Assembly (NCBI GenBank): GCA_032622095.1
Contig: CP136068.1
Location: 13,869,729 to 13,933,728 of the forward strand
Source of the DNA: Siphonodentalium dalli
Lineage: Eukaryota > Mollusca > Scaphopoda > Gadilida > Siphonodentaliidae
Length of the DNA: 64,000 bases
Reading direction: 5' to 3'
Positions 1,667 through 56,710 of the stretch are shown piece by piece (position 1 is the stretch's first letter; each line of letters starts with the position of its first letter). The translations under genes and the position numbers were made by a program. A model generated the notes under the pieces. That model saw nothing but the letters and a program-made list of their open reading frames with translations. It searched no databases and was not told the origin of the DNA.

Positions 1667-1768
1667 GAATCCCAGCAAATCCAATTTACGTCAGCGCTGA
1701 TGATCCAGATGCCCAGCCTGAATCCTCTGTGATCTATGCAGAGGTAAAAAAGCCCGGCAAGACAAAAG
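1667..1768 (+). CDS. Exon A1: NPxY/YVSAD module of a putative signalling tail
   Basis: Internal 102-nt exon, phase 1 at both ends, with acceptor ATGTTTACCTTTTCAG and donor GTTGGT. The translation begins IPANPIYVSADDPD and ends YAEVKKPGKTKG. It holds an NPxY motif (NPIY), a second tyrosine (VIYAEV) and a basic C-terminal end. NPxY is known as a PTB-domain or endocytic-adaptor ligand in receptor tails; that this copy works so is inference. It closely resembles exon A3, including the VYAEVKKP end and the upstream ATGTTTACC tract, so the two are paralogous. The element at 1814-2030 starts 45 bp after its donor. Upstream exons of the gene lie left of the window. The borders are predicted by eye only. 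The exon call is good because five other exons have the same length, phase and motif order. Confidence 0.8.
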
Positions 1769-2845: not shown

Positions 2846-2920
2846 GATCTTCTGGTAAGAAGAAACAGGATGCCGCCCCGGAACCTTCACCATACGAGGA
2901 CATCGAGAGTCAGAGATCAG
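2846..2920 (+). CDS. Exon Y1: YEDI tyrosine module
   Basis: Internal 75-nt exon, phase 1-1, with acceptor TTATCTGGCAG and donor GTAATA. The translation reads SSGKKKQDAAPEPSPYEDIE and continues SQRS. The start is basic (GKKK), then comes a Pro/acidic linker and the motif YEDI. YEDI/YEEI is the classic SH2-ligand type for Src-family kinases once phosphorylated; use here is inferred. It is paralogous to exon Y2, which has GKKKKEVPPSTEYEEI in the same order. It follows A1 by about 1.1 kb, filled by a palindromic MITE and a hAT-type foldback. The symmetric phase means it could be skipped without a frameshift. Confidence 0.75.
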
Positions 2921-3171
2921 GTAATATATCAATATCAGAACGAGGAACACAATTTTTTATTAGAACCCTTTTATTAGTGAATGGACTCTTCCTCTCTATT
3001 ATCATATTACTAATAGGAATCTTCTATCATTCAATTTGAGGGGTTTTCTGATACAAAGTGTCTGTATATATTTACAGCAAGTAGGGCTGCTAAGATTCAT
3101 CGCGATTATGATGCATCACGTATTTAAGTTCACAATGCAATGCATCGTATTGGGAGGGTGTGATGTGATAC

Positions 3172-6100
3172 AAAAAGAGTTCATGTATGCAGAGTTATTA
3201 ATAGTCAAAGACAAAAAGAGTTCATGTATGTAGAGTTATTAATAGTCAAAGACAAAAAGAGTTCATGTATGCAGAGTTATTAATAGTCAAAGACAAAAAG
3301 AGTTCATATATGTAGAGTTATTAATAGTCAAAGACAAAAAGAGTTCATGTATGCAGAGTTATTAATAGTCAAAGACAAAAATAGTTCATATATGTAGAGT
3401 TATTAATAGTCAAAGACAAAAAGAGTTCATGTATGCAGAGTTATTAATAGTCAAAGACAAAAAGAGTTCATATATGTAGAGTTATTAATAGTCAAAGACA
3501 AAAAGAGTTCATGTATGCAGAGTTATTAATAGTCAAAGACAAAAAGAGTTCATGTATGTAGAGTTATTAATAGTCAAAGACAAAAAGAGTTCATGTATGC
3601 AGAGTTATTAATAGTCAAAGACAAAAAGAGTTCATATATGTAGAGTTATTAATAGTCAAAGACAAAAAGAGTTCATGTATGTAGAGTTATTAATAGTCAA
3701 AGACAAAAAGAGTTCATGTATGTAGAGTTATTAATAGTCAAAGACAAAAAGAGTTCATGTATGCAGAGTTATTAATAGTCAAAGACAAAAAGAGTTCATG
3801 TATGTAGAGTTATTAATAGTCAAAGACAAAAAGAGTTCATGTATGTAGAGTTATTAATAGTCAAAGACAAAAAGAGTTCATGTATGTAGAGTTATTAATA
3901 GTCAAAGACAAAAAGAGTTCATGTATGTAGAGTTATTAATAGTCAAAGACAAAAAGAGTTCATGTATGCAGAGTTATTAATAGTCAAAGACAAAAAGAGT
4001 TCATGTATGTAGAGTTATTAATAGTCAAAGACAAAAAGAGTTCATGTATGTAGAGTTATTAATAGTCAAAGACAAAAAGAGTTCATGTATGCAGAGTTAT
4101 TAATAGTCAAAGACAAAAAGAGTTCATGTATGCAGAGTTATTAATAGTCAAAGACAAAAAGAGTTCATGTATGCAGAGTTATTAATAGTCAAAGACAAAA
4201 AGAGTTCATGTATGTAGAGTTATTAATAGTCAAAGACAAAAAGAGTTCATGTATGTAGAGTTATTAATAGTCAAAGACAAAAAGAGTTCATGTATGTAGA
4301 GTTATTAATAGTCAAAGACAAAAAGAGTTCATGTATGTAGAGTTATTAATAGTCAAAGACAAAAAGAGTTCATGTATGTAGAGTTATTAATAGTCAAAGA
4401 CAAAAAGAGTTCATGTATGCAGAGTTATTAATAGTCAAAGACAAAAAGAGTTCATGTATGCAGAGTTATTAATAGTCAAAGACAAAAAGAGTTCATGTAT
4501 GCAGAGTTATTAATAGTCAAAGACAAAAAGAGTTCATGTATGTAGAGTTATTAATAGTCAAAGACAAAAAGAGTTCATGTATGTAGAGTTATTAATAGTC
4601 AAAGACAAAAAGAGTTCATGTATGCAGAGTTATTAATAGTCAAAGACAAAAAGAGTTCATGTATGCAGAGTTATTAATAGTCAAAGACAAAAAGAGTTCA
4701 TGTATGCAGAGTTATTAATAGTCAAAGACAAAAAGAGTTCATGTATGCAGAGTTATTAATAGTCAAAGACAAAAAGAGTTCATGTATGCAGAGTTATTAA
4801 TAGTCAAAGACAAAAAGAGTTCATGTATGCAGAGTTATTAATAGTCAAAGACAAAAAGAGTTCATGTATGTAGAGTTATTAATAGTCAAAGACAAAAAGA
4901 GTTCATGTATGTAGAGTTATTAATAGTCAAAGACAAAAAGAGTTCATGTATGCAGAGTTATTAATAGTCAAAGACAAAAAGAGTTCATGTATGTAGAGTT
5001 ATTAATAGTCAAAGACAAAAAGAGTTCATATATGTAGAGTTATTAATAGTCAAAGACAAAAAGAGTTCATGTATGCAGAGTTATTAATAGTCAAAGACAA
5101 AAAGAGTTCATGTATGTAGAGTTATTAATAGTCAAAGACAAAAAGAGTTCATGTATGTAGAGTTATTAAGAGTCAAAGACAAAAAGAGTTCATGTATGCA
5201 GAGTTATTAATAGTCAAAGACAAAAAGAGTTCATGTATGTAGAGTTATTAATAGTCAAAGACAAAAAGAGTTCATGTATGTAGAGTTATTAATAGTCAAA
5301 GACAAAAAGAGTTCATGTATGCAGAGTTATTAATAGTCAAAGACAAAAAGAGTTCATGTATGTAGAGTTATTAATAGTCAAAGACAAAAAGAGTTCATGT
5401 ATGTAGAGTTATTAATAGTCAAAGACAAAAAGAGTTCATGTATGTAGAGTTATTAATAGTCAAAGACAAAAAGAGTTCATGTATGTAGAGTTATTAATAG
5501 TCAAAGACAAAAAGAGTTCATGTATGTAGAGTTATTAATAGTCAAAGACAAAAAGAGTTCATGTATGTAGAGTTATTAATAGTCAAAGACAAAAAGAGTT
5601 CATGTATGTAGAGTTATTAATAGTCAAAGACAAAAAGAGTTCATGTATGCAGAGTTATTAATAGTCAAAGACAAAAAGAGTTCATGTATGCAGAGTTATT
5701 AATAGTCAAAGACAAAAAGAGTTCATGTATGCAGAGTTATTAATAGTCAAAGACAAAAAGAGTTCATGTATGTAGAGTTATTAATAGTCAAAGACAAAAA
5801 GAGTTCATGTATGCAGAGTTATTAATAGTCAAAGACAAAAAGAGTTCATGTATGCAGAGTTATTAATAGTCAAAGACAAAAAGAGTTCATGTATGTAGAG
5901 TTATTAATAGTCAAAGACAAAAAGAGTTCATGTATGTAGAGTTATTAAGAGTCAAAGACAAAAAGAGTTCATGTATGCAGAGTTATTAATAGTCAAAGAC
6001 AAAAAGAGTTCATGTATGTAGAGTTATTAATAGTCAAAGACAAAAAGAGTTCATGTATGTAGAGTTATTAATAGTCAAAGACAAAAAGAGTTCATGTATG

Positions 6101-8541
6101 CAGAGTTATTAATAGTCAAAGACAAAAAGAGTTCATGTATGTAGAGTTATTAATAGTCAAAGACAAAAAGAGTTCATGTATGTAGAGTTATTAATAGTCA
6201 AAGACAAAAAGAGTTCATGTATGTAGAGTTATTAATAGTCAAAGACAAAAAGAGTTCATGTATGTAGAGTTATTAATAGTCAAAGACAAAAAGAGTTCAT
6301 GTATGTAGAGTTATTAATAGTCAAAGACAAAAAGAGTTCATGTATGTAGAGTTATTAATAGTCAAAGACAAAAAGAGTTCATGTATGTAGAGTTATTAAT
6401 AGTCAAAGACAAAAAGAGTTCATGTATGCAGAGTTATTAATAGTCAAAGACAAAAAGAGTTCATGTATGCAGAGTTATTAATAGTCAAAGACAAAAAGAG
6501 TTCATGTATGCAGAGTTATTAATAGTCAAAGACAAAAAGAGTTCATGTATGTAGAGTTATTAATAGTCAAAGACAAAAAGAGTTCATGTATGCAGAGTTA
6601 TTAATAGTCAAAGACAAAAAGAGTTCATGTATGCAGAGTTATTAATAGTCAAAGACAAAAAGAGTTCATGTATGTAGAGTTATTAATAGTCAAAGACAAA
6701 AAGAGTTCATGTATGTAGAGTTATTAAGAGTCAAAGACAAAAAGAGTTCATGTATGCAGAGTTATTAATAGTCAAAGACAAAAAGAGTTCATGTATGTAG
6801 AGTTATTAATAGTCAAAGACAAAAAGAGTTCATGTATGTAGAGTTATTAATAGTCAAAGACAAAAAGAGTTCATGTATGCAGAGTTATTAATAGTCAAAG
6901 ACAAAAAGAGTTCATGTATGTAGAGTTATTAATAGTCAAAGACAAAAAGAGTTCATGTATGTAGAGTTATTAATAGTCAAAGACAAAAAGAGTTCATGTA
7001 TGTAGAGTTATTAATAGTCAAAGACAAAAAGAGTTCATGTATGCAGAGTTATTAATAGTCAAAGAAAAAAAGAGTTCATGTATGTAGAGTTATTAATAGT
7101 CAAAGACAAAAAGAGTTCATGTATGTAGAGTTATTAATAGTCAAAGACAAAAAGAGTTCATGTATGTAGAGTTATTAATAGTCAAAGACAAAAAGAGTTC
7201 ATGTATGCAGAGTTATTAATAGTCAAAGACAAAAAGAGTTCATGTATGCAGAGTTATTAATAGTCAAAGACAAAAAGAGTTCATGTATGCAGAGTTATTA
7301 ATAGTCAAAGACAAAAAGAGTTCATGTATGTAGAGTTATTAATAGTCAAAGACAAAAAGAGTTCATGTATGCAGAGTTATTAATAGTCAAAGACAAAAAG
7401 AGTTCATGTATGCAGAGTTATTAATAGTCAAAGACAAAAAGAGTTCATGTATGCAGAGTTATTAATAGTCAAAGACAAAAAGAGTTCATGTATGTAGAGT
7501 TATTAATAGTCAAAGACAAAAAGAGTTCATGTATGCAGAGTTATTAATAGTCAAAGACAAAAAGAGTTCATGTATGCAGAGTTATTAATAGTCAAAGACA
7601 AAAAGAGTTCATGTATGTAGAGTTATTAATAGTCAAAGACAAAAAGAGTTCATGTATGTAGAGTTATTAAGAGTCAAAGACAAAAAGAGTTCATGTATGC
7701 AGAGTTATTAATAGTCAAAGACAAAAAGAGTTCATGTATGTAGAGTTATTAATAGTCAAAGACAAAAAGAGTTCATGTATGTAGAGTTATTAATAGTCAA
7801 AGACAAAAAGAGTTCATGTATGCAGAGTTATTAATAGTCAAAGACAAAAAGAGTTCATGTATGTAGAGTTATTAATAGTCAAAGACAAAAAGAGTTCATG
7901 TATGTAGAGTTATTAATAGTCAAAGACAAAAAGAGTTCATGTATGTAGAGTTATTAATAGTCAAAGACAAAAAGAGTTCATGTATGTAGAGTTATTAATA
8001 GTCAAAGACAAAAAGAGTTCATGTATGTAGAGTTATTAATAGTCAAAGACAAAAAGAGTTCATGTATGTAGAGTTATTAATAGTCAAAGACAAAAAGAGT
8101 TCATGTATGTAGAGTTATTAATAGTCAAAGACAAAAAGAGTTCATGTATGCAGAGTTATTAATAGTCAAAGACAAAAAGAGTTCATGTATGCAGAGTTAT
8201 TAATAGTCAAAGACAAAAAGAGTTCATGTATGCAGAGTTATTAATAGTCAAAGACAAAAAGAGTTCATGTATGTAGAGTTATTAATAGTCAAAGACAAAA
8301 AGAGTTCATGTATGCAGAGTTATTAATAGTCAAAGACAAAAAGAGTTCATGTATGCAGAGTTATTAATAGTCAAAGACAAAAAGAGTTCATGTATGCAGA
8401 GTTATTAATAGTCAAAGACAAAAAGAGTTCATGTATGTAGAGTTATTAATAGTCAAAGACAAAAAGAGTTCATGTATGCAGAGTTATTAATAGTCAAAGA
8501 CAAAAAGAGTTCATGTATGCAGAGTTATTAATAGTCAAAGA
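3172..8541. repeat. 41-bp satellite array with higher-order structure
   Basis: About 131 copies of a 41-bp unit beginning AGAGTTATTAATAGTCAAAG and ending TTCATGTATGY. Most copies differ only in the last base (C or T). A rare variant, TTATTAAGAG, recurs at 5163, 5942 and 6721 (779 bp, exactly 19 units) and at 7664 (943 bp, 23 units). The array lies in the intron between Y1 and b1. Confidence 0.97.
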
Positions 8542-26189: not shown

Positions 26190-26291
26190 GTATTCCTGCA
26201 AATCCACAGTATATCAGTGCTGACGAGGTTCATCTAGATGAGACAACCACGTCGAAGTCTGATCGCAAGAAGTCAGACAAAAAACTCAAAG
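26190..26291 (+). CDS. Exon A2: NPQYISADE module
   Basis: Internal 102-nt exon, phase 1-1, acceptor AATCCACAG, donor GTAAGG. The translation begins IPANPQYISADEVHLDETTT and ends in a Lys-rich stretch with RKKSDKKLKG. The NPxY motif, YISADE core and basic end follow the order of A1 and A4. It starts an A-B-C cassette: B2 follows after 266 bp and C2 after another 1.2 kb. The intron to B2 contains short irregular repeats of GACACATATTGACATATATT type. Confidence 0.82.
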
Positions 26292-26557: not shown

Positions 26558-26585
26558 AGAAAGAATCAAAGAAATCAAAATCAGA
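26558..26585 (+). CDS. Microexon B2 (28 nt, phase 1-2)
   Basis: A 28-nt exon with acceptor CTTCTTACAG and donor GTAAGT. Joined to A2 (ending in G) it reads EKESKKSKSE, a charged Lys/Glu/Ser linker. It ends in phase 2, so it is in frame only with a phase-2 exon such as C2. B3 is nearly the same (EKEAKNTKPE), which is strong evidence that both are real duplicated exons. Confidence 0.75.
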
Positions 26586-26874
26586 GTAAGTTATTATTCT
26601 TTATTTTACTATCTTATCGTCAACCTGGCGACAGGGGTGTGGCAACAATGATGGGAGTGGGGGGTGTTTAATCTCCACAATTTTGACAAGTCAATTTTCC
26701 GTTTCTCTGGTCAAAATATTTTTTAAATCATGCAAGCGCGCGGTTTTTAATATAATTGTTTATTTTTCTGGGCACATGCCAACGAAGCATTCCAGATCAG
26801 ATAGCGCTGGGTTTAATTTAATTTGTCAGTGGCCATTATTACCCCAACGTAATATGCTAATGGGTTTGTCGATA

Positions 26875-28878: not shown

Positions 28879-28904
28879 GTATCTCAGCAAACCCTACATA
28901 CATA
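28879..28904 (+). pseudogene. Truncated A-type exon remnant
   Basis: After a good acceptor (ATCTCTATTACAG) the sequence reads ISANPTYI in phase 1, the start of an A exon with an NPTY motif. Homology to A exons stops after about 26 bp, the frame reaches a stop at 28951, and a dispersed element begins near 28943. It is probably a dead exon copy. If the acceptor were used it would give a short alternative C-terminus that keeps one NPxY motif. Confidence 0.55.
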
Positions 28905-28942
28905 ATATTAAGCCGGTATTCTACTTTGCTCACATTTCAATT

Positions 28943-29501
28943 TATTACATGATCCTACCCTTATTCCATTCAATAAACCCATTCTATAAATTGTGATATT
29001 AAACGTTCGTTTAATAACAGGAAATAGTGCCAGGTGACCTTTGTCTTCCGGTTTGTTACCTGTTTACATTCCATACGCTACATCTCAAAAATATACTATA
29101 GTTTCCAATATTTTTCCATCAAACTATAATGAATGAAGAGTTTGAAAAGTTATGCCATTAAATATACGCCAGTAAATACGACATAGAGTCTTTATTTATC
29201 TGGGACTATTTCTTTACGCGGGCAAACAACGTATAGTTAAGTGAAACTGAACGTCATCGCATGCCTTATAGAAGCTGATGTAAGTTTCTTATCCCATTTG
29301 TTGATTTAAGTATGTTTTGTCGAGGTTTTGGATCATGTAATAAATAGAATCTACAACTCGTCCCCAGTTTATAGGGGAATTTACAAAACTAGTCCAGTAA
29401 ATTAGGTCAGGACCTCGGCAAAGGCTCGGCCCAGACCTAATTTACTGTACTCGTTTTGTAAATTCCGCTATAAACTGGGGACTCGTTGTAGATCCTCTAT
29501 G
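28943..29501 (+). mobile_element. Dispersed element E, copy 2
   Basis: Starts TTACATGATCCTACCC and ends with an inverted-repeat end CCCCAGTTTATAG..CTATAAACTGGGG..GATCCTCTA. It begins about 40 bp after the broken A exon. Confidence 0.75.
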
Positions 29502-31777: not shown

Positions 31778-31849
31778 ACATCACTGGAACGGGAGAACCA
31801 ATAAGTGCAGATGATATGACTGATATCTATTTCATGTTTACCGTTTCAG
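31778..31849 (+). repeat. Degraded first unit of the A3 array
   Basis: Reads EPISADDMTDIYFMFTVS. The exon start and its acceptor are lost, but the 3' part still supplies CTGAT, the pyrimidine tract and the acceptor for the first functional unit. Confidence 0.7.
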
Positions 31850-32239
31850 GTATCCCGGCAAACCCAGCATACATAAGTGCAGATCAAGTGACTGATTTCC
31901 ATCTCATGTTTACCGTTTCAGGTATCCCGGCAAACCCAGCATACATAAGTGCAGATCAAGTGACTGATTTCCATCTCATGTTTACCGTTTCAGGTATCCC
32001 GGCAAACCCAGCATACATAAGTGCAGATCAAGTGACTGATTTCTATCTCACGTTTACCGTTTCAGGTATCCCGGCAAACCCAGCATACATAAGTGCAGAT
32101 CAAGTGACTGATTTCTATCTCACGTTTACCGTTTCAGGTATCCCGGCAAACCCAGCATACATAAGTGCAGATGAAGTCACTGATATCCAGCCTGAATTTG
32201 CTGTGTATGCAGAGGTTAAAAAACCCCGAAAAACAAAAG
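31850..32239 (+). CDS. Exon A3 with five tandem in-frame acceptors (NPAYISAD repeats)
   Basis: The basic exon is 32138-32239: 102 nt, phase 1-1, donor GTTTGT. It begins IPANPAYISADEVTD and ends YAEVKKPRKTKG, the closest relative of A1. Upstream, a 72-bp unit is repeated in frame, with acceptors TTTACCGTTTCAG ending at 31849, 31921, 31993, 32065 and 32137. Each unit encodes GIPANPAYISADQVTD plus F[HY]L[MT]FTVS, where the last eight codons are also the pyrimidine tract and acceptor of the next unit. Choice of acceptor would give exons of 102, 174, 246, 318 or 390 nt with one to five NPAY motifs. A degraded unit without acceptor precedes them (31778-31849). Units 1 and 2 are identical, as are 3 and 4, so duplication is recent. 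The array lies inside a TTAA-bounded inverted-repeat element. Confidence 0.78.
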
Positions 32240-32275
32240 GTTTGTGGTTAATTCATGATTTAATGATATTCCATG

Positions 32276-32529
32276 CAAGCCTTGAAATAGTGTGTCTGTC
32301 ATTTGCAGAATGAGGTCCCCAGAGGGTGAATTTAGTGATGCTACCCCGCATAGCGGGCTAGCATCACCAAATTCACCCTCTGGGAACCTCATTCTGCTGA
32401 GGTGTAAGCAGAATGAGGATCCCAGAGGGTGAATTTGGTGATGCTAGCCCGCTATGCGGGGTAGCATCACTAAATTCACCATCTGGGGACCTCATTCTGC
32501 AAATGACAGACACACTATTTCAAGGCTTG
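32276..32529. mobile_element. hAT-type MITE, family C, with exact 8-bp duplication
   Basis: Inverted ends CAAGCCTTGAAATAG and CTATTTCAAGGCTTG, flanked by ATTCCATG at 32268-32275 and 32530-32537. This defines the full ends of family C and supports a hAT origin. Confidence 0.88.
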
Positions 32530-37093: not shown

Positions 37094-37195
37094 GTATTCC
37101 CATGAATCCTCAGTATATAAGCGCTGATGACCTCGAGAAAGAGGAAACTACTCCTACCAAGACCGCTGCCAAGAAACCGGACAAGAAAACCAAAG
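37094..37195 (+). CDS. Exon A4: NPQYISADD module
   Basis: Internal 102-nt exon, phase 1-1, acceptor CTATGTATCCAG, donor GTGAGA. The translation begins IPMNPQYISADDLEKEETTP and ends with a basic KKPDKKTKG stretch. NPxY, YISAD, acidic middle and Lys-rich tail are all present. It follows the large tandem array ending near 36961 by about 130 bp and precedes Y2 by 3.9 kb, giving a second A-then-Y order like A1-Y1. Confidence 0.82.
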
Positions 37196-41103: not shown

Positions 41104-41184
41104 GTGGGTTGTTTGGTAAGAAGAAAAAGGAGGTTCCTCCCTCCACTGAATATGAGGAGATCGGGAACATGAAAGATGAAAGTC
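41104..41184 (+). CDS. Exon Y2: YEEI tyrosine module
   Basis: Internal 81-nt exon, phase 1-1, acceptor TTTCATTTTCCAG, donor GTAAGT. It reads GLFGKKKKEVPPSTEYEEIG then NMKDES plus a trailing C. YEEI is the textbook high-affinity ligand type for Src-family SH2 domains when phosphorylated; that the protein is phosphorylated is inference. GKKKK and the Pro/acidic linker align with Y1. A palindromic MITE ends 50 bp before its acceptor region. Confidence 0.8.
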
Positions 41185-47264: not shown

Positions 47265-47310
47265 CAGATGAAACGTAACTACCTTGTTGCAGATGAATGG
47301 AAAAAAAATT
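47265..47310 (+). pseudogene. Decayed duplicate of exon A5 with lost acceptor
   Basis: The stretch reads FQMKRNYLVADEW, then Lys/Asn codons and a stop, closely matching LPMKRNYISADEF of exon A5 about 0.9 kb downstream. The intron sequence just before A5 (CCATCTCTACCCACTTTACAG) has a counterpart at 45592-45612 (ACCATTTCTACCCACCTTA). About 1.65 kb of dispersed repeat now separates that counterpart from the exon copy and removes its acceptor. I infer a duplicated exon killed by repeat insertion. Confidence 0.6.
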
Positions 47311-48156: not shown

Positions 48157-48261
48157 AGTTGCCGATGAAACGTAACTACATTAGTGCAGATGAATTTCCA
48201 GCTGAAGAGACCGAGACGTCTCTTACAGTTAACAAACCAAAACCAAACAAGAAATCCAAAG
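48157..48261 (+). CDS. Exon A5: divergent YISADE module lacking NP
   Basis: Internal 105-nt exon, phase 1-1, acceptor CCCACTTTACAG, donor GTAAGA. It begins LPMKRNYISADEFPAEETET and ends KPNKKSKG. YISADE, the acidic middle and the Lys-rich end are kept, but the NPxY asparagine and proline are replaced (KRNY). It is one codon longer than the other A exons. A TTAA-flanked MITE ends 67 bp upstream and a truncated hAT-type foldback starts about 18 bp after its donor. It can join T (GCA, Ala) or K (GGC, Gly). Confidence 0.77.
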
Positions 48262-56656: not shown

Positions 56657-56710
56657 GCAAACCACCAACGCCAAAGAAGTTATCTGTAAAGAAATCCAAA
56701 AACAGTGATG
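56657..56710 (+). CDS. Exon K: basic Pro/Lys module downstream of T
   Basis: A 54-nt candidate exon, phase 1-1, acceptor TTGTTATTTGCAG, donor GTAAGA. It reads (G)KPPTPKKLSVKKSKNSD(G), Lys-rich like the ends of the A exons. Its place 3 kb beyond the stop-bearing exon T means that transcripts either end at T or skip T and go on through K to exons I could not find. A 33-bp minisatellite lies just before the acceptor. The last bases plus donor are duplicated at 56748-56770 with the donor GT changed to AT. Confidence 0.6.

Follow-up and report, generated by a model that had tools for sequence, protein, structure and literature searches.

Five tandem in-frame candidate splice acceptors at the edge of a tail exon in a predicted Ig/FN3 receptor gene of Siphonodentalium dalli

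Results

The stretch of DNA analysed here (the window; 64,000 nucleotides, C8:13869729-13933728) belongs to a 2.2-Gb genome assembly of nine contigs, of which approximately 194 kb around the window was read. On the plus strand, four Ig-like exons (near C8:13800860, 13808871, 13812222 and 13814870) and one FN3 exon (13817514) were identified before a transmembrane exon encoding GGVLLLIIIAVVVLILLKRHRNKG (near C8:13822993), and all of these lie upstream of a series of tail exons on the same strand. Pfam searches gave a match to fn3 at the FN3 exon (3e-9) and a sole Ig match above the cut-off (I-set, 8e-6), with Ig_2 (1.2e-5) and Ig_3 (0.003) falling below it and no Pfam match for the third of the four Ig-like exons. 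The order, strand and phase of these exons suggest that one gene encodes a receptor with several Ig domains, an FN3 domain, a transmembrane segment and a cytoplasmic tail assembled from cassettes.

Approximately 22 relatives of the FN3 exon were found in the genome at 41-84% identity, most of them on C8 (7.4-26 Mb) and others at C2:144.26-144.29 Mb; the receptor thus belongs to a large Ig/FN3 family whose members are mostly clustered. For two close paralogues, at C8:13115251 and C8:7520691, a search of the 40 kb that follow the FN3 exon gave no match to any of the tail cassettes described below, and a match to the transmembrane exon only at C8:13115251. Because their tails differ, these two paralogues give no ancestral state for the exon studied here. 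The paralogue at C8:13115251 (reverse strand) has a tail exon approximately 3.9 kb after its FN3 exon with the repeats HYEDLAS, HYDNLAS, HYDNIAS and HYDNLTN, suggesting that the number of tyrosine motifs in this receptor family also grows through plain repeats within an exon.

The tail cassettes are short exons that fall into types A, B, D, E and F, all of which agree in having phase 1 at both ends (Table 1). The exons A1, A2, A3, B1, B2 and B3 each measure exactly 102 nt from the acceptor, or from the last acceptor where there are several. The last exon, near window position 79806, encodes IYVTNL, DYETID and IYENAV followed by a stop and is ITIM-like; it is open in phase 0, so that at least one exon between F and this one must have escaped detection. 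A possible alternative last exon, which would shorten the tail, was noted just after B2 (window 26558-26588; acceptor CTTCTTACAG followed by EKESKKSKSE and a stop codon), and a further degenerate cassette copy, MKRNYLVADEW, lies 0.9 kb upstream of B4 (window 47268-47300).

Table 1. Tail cassettes and array elements in window coordinates (negative values lie upstream of the window)
Feature	Position	Strand	Remarks
Exon A1	starts -38711
Exon D1	starts -38062
Exon B1	starts -24424
Exon A2	1667..1768	+	NPIY and VIYAEV; 102 nt; single acceptor; near-identical to A1
Exon D2	2846..2920	+	SSGKKKQDAAPEPSPYEDIESQRS; phase 1/1
Exon B2	26190..26291	+	NPQY; 102 nt; strong donor
Degenerate A/B-like copy	28879..28952	+	Acceptor, then GISANPTYI; no matching donor found
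Relic, partial first copy	31801..31849	+	49 bp; ATAAGTGCAGATGATATGACTGATATC (27 bp, exon-like) followed by the polypyrimidine tract and the AG of acceptor 1
72-bp unit 1	31850..31921	+	IPANPAYISADQVTDFHLMFTVSG; acceptor 2 at its end
72-bp unit 2	31922..31993	+	Acceptor-to-acceptor protein as in unit 1; acceptor 3 at its end
72-bp unit 3	31994..32065	+	...DFYLTFTVSG; acceptor 4 at its end
72-bp unit 4	32066..32137	+	Same as unit 3; acceptor 5 at its end
Exon A3	32138..32239	+	102 nt, phase 1/1, the ancestral form; G/IPANPAYISADEVTDIQPEFAVYAEVKKPRKTK/G; donor AAG/gtttgt at 32240
Exon B3	37094..37195	+	IPMNPQYISADDLEKEETTPTKTAAKKPDKKTK; 102 nt; strong donor
Exon D3	41104..41184	+	GLFGKKKKEVPPSTEYEEIGNMKDES; phase 1/1
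Exon B4	48157..48261	+	LPMKRNYISADEFPAEETETSLTVNKPKPNKKSK; NPxY lost, YISADE kept (KRNYISADEF)
Exon E	56657..56710	+	KPPTPKKLSVKKSKNSD; phase 1/1
Exon F	starts 64946

A segmental duplication of approximately 97% identity gave rise to the sets A1/D1/B1 and A2/D2/B2, and A1/A2 and B1/B2 show zero nonsynonymous differences. The duplicated copies span C8:13824287-13845444 and C8:13865209-13896058, the second corresponding to window positions -4520 to 26329. Other repeats were recorded nearby. Between B1 and A2 there are about three and a half copies of a 5,061-bp tandem unit at 99.97% identity (C8:13845894-13863190; window -23835 to -6539), and the intron after D2 contains 131 copies of a 41-bp minisatellite at 98% (window 3170-8541). 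A mobile-element-like palindrome with ends CCTTGAAATAGTGTGTCTGTCATTTGCAG occurs at window 32280-32525, 48281 and 57014; the first of these starts approximately 40 bp downstream of the A3 donor and the second approximately 20 bp downstream of the B4 donor. The palindrome's end TCATTTGCAG resembles an acceptor. A strong hairpin formed by such palindromes near donors could affect splicing.

Across the A and B exons the residues P3, Y8, S10, A11 and D12 and a basic end are invariant. NPxY is found in A1-A3 and B1-B3, but B4 reads KRNY, and the N and P of NPxY are thus not invariant. The consensus bound by PTB domains is hydrophobic-x-N-P-x-Y, while the residue at -5 from the tyrosine is here an invariant proline (IPANPAY) and not a hydrophobic one. 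NPxY/PTB docking is thus a label and not a finding.

On present evidence, A3 is a real coding exon. It is homologous to A1 and A2 at 74% amino acid identity, and the A exons and B1-B4 share orientation and phase. Between A1 and A3, 24 of 32 aligned amino acids are identical despite 23 nucleotide differences, which are distributed 6/3/14 over the three codon positions (dN 0.16, dS 1.10, codon-aligned). With an equal number of random substitutions the mean identity was 17 amino acids and a stop was gained in 49% of trials (P ~0.0003). The intron flanks of A1 and A3 are unalignable downstream (31% over 100 nt), and the last 25 nt upstream are 68% identical. The A1-A3 comparison thus shows purifying selection on the A-type exon. 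Searches with the A3 protein found matches at its own locus only (E up to 10), and a query against the PDB found none. Since A1-A3 and B1-B3 uniformly measure 102 nt, the form of A3 that starts at its last acceptor is the ancestral one.

The 5′ edge of exon A3 forms part of a period-72 array (window 31801-32189) of 5.4 copies with 96% matches and no indels, as determined with Tandem Repeats Finder. The reading frame is free of stops across the whole array up to the donor at 32240, and the translation reads IPANPAYISADQVTDFHLMFTVSG twice, then IPANPAYISADQVTDFYLTFTVSG twice, then IPANPAYISADEVTDIQPEFAVYAEVKKPRKTK/G. Unit 1 is identical to unit 2 and unit 3 to unit 4, with 2 of 72 bases differing between the pairs, and the relic is distinct from all four. 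An assembly error may have affected the array, but the two-base differences that separate the unit pairs disfavor simple stutter. DNA and pattern searches found no other copies of the unit elsewhere in the genome.

The first-pass annotation of this DNA had proposed five in-frame acceptors, each within a stop-free 72-bp unit that carries CTGAT, a pyrimidine tract, an AG and codons for NPAY, and this description was borne out by the array, its open frame and the equality of the acceptor scores. The five AGs have their last bases at 31849, 31921, 31993, 32065 and 32137, and the core TTTACCGTTTCAG/GTATCC (slash, splice boundary) is common to all five, which share a single frame. The predicted exons, all ending at 32239, would be 390, 318, 246, 174 or 102 nt long with five, four, three, two or one NPAY motifs, respectively. 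A second motif, YAEV, is present in the last copy only and is not multiplied by the array. The last 13 nt are identical in all five acceptors and each scores 4.69, placing it in the top 0.8% of AGs in the 194-kb locus; this and the other splice scores derive from generic metazoan tables and not from tables trained on this species. Each acceptor has two yUnAy candidates for the branch point, CTGAT with its A at -27 and another with its A at -16. The CTGAT derives from the exon (in the last copy, GTC ACT GAT) and the tract from the intron: exon-derived ATAAGTGCAGATSAAGTSACTGAT supplies the branch-point candidate, and an intron-derived stretch ending in TTTACCGTTTCAG supplies the tract and AG. 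Acceptor 1 sits inside the relic, whose sequence provides its branch-point region. A pattern search of the 2.2-Gb genome allowing up to two mismatches returned five matches to the acceptor core, all of them here, and none outside the array.

The donor of A3 (AAG/gtttgt), which is the end that fits the homologous exons, scores weakly (0.61), and because of this weakness A3 may often be skipped. AG/GT also occurs at every unit boundary, as CAG/GTATCC at 31850, 31922, 31994, 32066 and 32138. As a donor this sequence scores 0.86, slightly above that of A3 but weak in absolute terms, being matched or exceeded by 7.5% of all GTs in the locus. Another candidate donor, CAA/GTGACT inside units 1-4 (score 1.11), was rejected, since it would give a 38-nt exon that shifts the frame. 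Five NPxY cassettes lie outside the array (A1, A2, B1, B2 and B3), and if all cassettes were included the tail would carry six NPxY motifs with the 102-nt form of A3 and ten with the 390-nt form.

Discussion

The array is recent, because its units are nearly identical (at most 2 of 72 bases different). It was initially attributed to one tandem duplication, an account that does not hold: the identity of units 1 and 2 and of units 3 and 4, the differences between these pairs and the relic of a further copy point to several rounds. The duplicated 72-bp segment would comprise approximately 22-45 bp of intron end and the first 27-50 bp of the exon, and would have carried along a full 3′ splice site (exon-derived branch point, intron-derived tract and AG) as well as the exon's opening codons. 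Every acceptor would be usable, since the unit has a length divisible by three and is free of stops. Tandem arrays with a period of at least 20 make up 9.7% of the locus, and with approximately 12 acceptors in the gene about one would therefore be expected to fall within an array by chance. When duplications of 45-120 bp were simulated over the other acceptors of the gene, 15% were in frame and free of stops, and 52% at a length of 72. Arrays that break the frame would tend to be purged by selection, which would raise the conditional chance further. The sequence repeat itself is certain, while its status as a selected device is not supported.

Several known systems resemble the array in part. 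NAGNAG and other tandem acceptors are in-frame 3′ splice sites that compete for one exon, usually 3 to some tens of nucleotides apart and with a common branch point, whereas the A3 acceptors are 72 nt apart and each has its own complete set of signals. When the literature was searched for natural VNTRs that cover splice acceptors, the closest system found was the human polyubiquitin gene UBC, in which tandem AGGT lies exactly at the boundaries of 228-nt units and stochastic choice among them produces an in-frame ladder by RT-PCR (Duan et al. 2024, PMC10809524). The first-pass annotation, which knew of no described system of this form, had overlooked UBC. No tissue regulation of UBC was found, and human tandem repeats show an 8.4-fold enrichment of introns that are a multiple of the repeat unit (PMC10809524). 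As in UBC, the A3 array has AG/GT at the edges of units that are a multiple of three, and its frame is open, so that removal of whole units would stay in frame. The two differ in that UBC units are complete 228-nt coding monomers, whereas the 72-nt unit is young, lies over an intron-exon junction and brings its own intron-derived tract; further, the UBC ladder has been seen in RNA and the A3 array is known here from genomic sequence.

In the potato RdRp gene, a tandem duplication likewise copied an intron-exon stretch with branch site, polypyrimidine tract and 3′ splice site together with the exon start (PMC4974935). That event gave rise to a single additional intron and exon and activated a new donor, whereas the A3 array has no new strong donor and its copies are contiguous, free of stops and in frame. 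In arthropods, Dscam (e.g. of P. monodon) is an IgSF receptor whose tail is likewise divided among many exons with tyrosine motifs that can be included or skipped; with its ten Ig domains, six FN3 domains and mutually exclusive Ig exon arrays it differs from the present gene as so far identified, and its tail exons do not form a duplicated NPxY series and are not known to carry a splice-site array (PMC6851185). Variation of repeat number through tandem AG/GT splicing is thus already known from UBC, and what differs here is the combination of five complete, translatable 3′ splice sites in a row that span an intron-exon junction in a receptor tail.

Because five equal sites precede a single weak donor, the simplest expectation is that a mixture of them is used. 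The spliceosome would pick among the equally strong acceptors stochastically, or would excise whole units between AG/GT boundaries, yielding mRNAs in 72-nt steps, whose proteins would carry IPANPAYISAD one to five times. We infer transcription, the use of several acceptors and any effect on signaling, and we lean toward appreciable stochastic use of at least two acceptors, including partial removal of units, as the probable behavior of this exon. Position effects may make the first or the last acceptor dominant, and a pattern in which one acceptor prevails (most likely the last, giving 102 nt, or the first, giving 390 nt) would leave the remaining array as a passive coding or intronic minisatellite. 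This outcome would agree with the other A and B exons, all of 102 nt with one acceptor, and with the expectation that a locus so rich in minisatellites would have about one acceptor in an array by chance. We nevertheless think it rather unlikely, as the five acceptors share their last 13 nt and their branch-point candidates and only position could favor one of them. The AG/GT boundaries raise another possibility, that the 72-nt units (GTATCC...TTTCAG) are efficiently excised as nascent introns under the tandem-duplication model of Rogers, so that the protein keeps one motif. The units do begin with GT and end with AG, their boundary donor outscores that of A3, and there are precedents in UBC, ATP2A1 and a 24-bp AGGT array in fission yeast (the latter two as cited in PMC4974935). 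A donor equaled by so many other GTs in the locus makes efficient excision highly improbable, and removal of units as introns would yield the same mature mRNAs as acceptor choice.

The first-pass annotation had viewed the array as a graded dial for docking sites. Its premise stands in so far as isoforms with one to five NPAY motifs are possible, given equal, frame-compatible acceptors in front of a real exon. The stronger version, in which cells or tissues choose acceptor ratios under selection to set the number of tyrosine docking motifs in the tail, could draw on the frame being intact in all five forms and on a receptor family that expands tyrosine motifs, as in the paralogue tail exon with four HYEDL/HYDNL/HYDNI repeats. 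We give it very little credence. The units are too young for a signal of selection, and an open, in-frame array is expected by chance at the simulated frequencies (15%, or 52% at 72 bp). If every cassette outside the array is included, the range would be six to ten and not one to five. The NP pair is not kept in all cassettes, the residue at -5 is proline, and the closest precedent, UBC, showed no tissue-specific regulation.

If stochastic use of the acceptors is true, A3 would be a natural experiment on 3′ splice-site choice, with five like acceptors in equal 72-nt steps before one donor. The number of units may also vary among individuals, which would allow the splicing of alleles to be compared directly. 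Were a regulated dial true, one receptor gene would set the number of docking motifs in its tail through acceptor choice. On the stochastic reading that we favor, the array would show a minisatellite turning intron sequence into protein and making the repeat number of a receptor tail variable, and it would extend the principle of UBC from coding repeats to an intron-exon junction.
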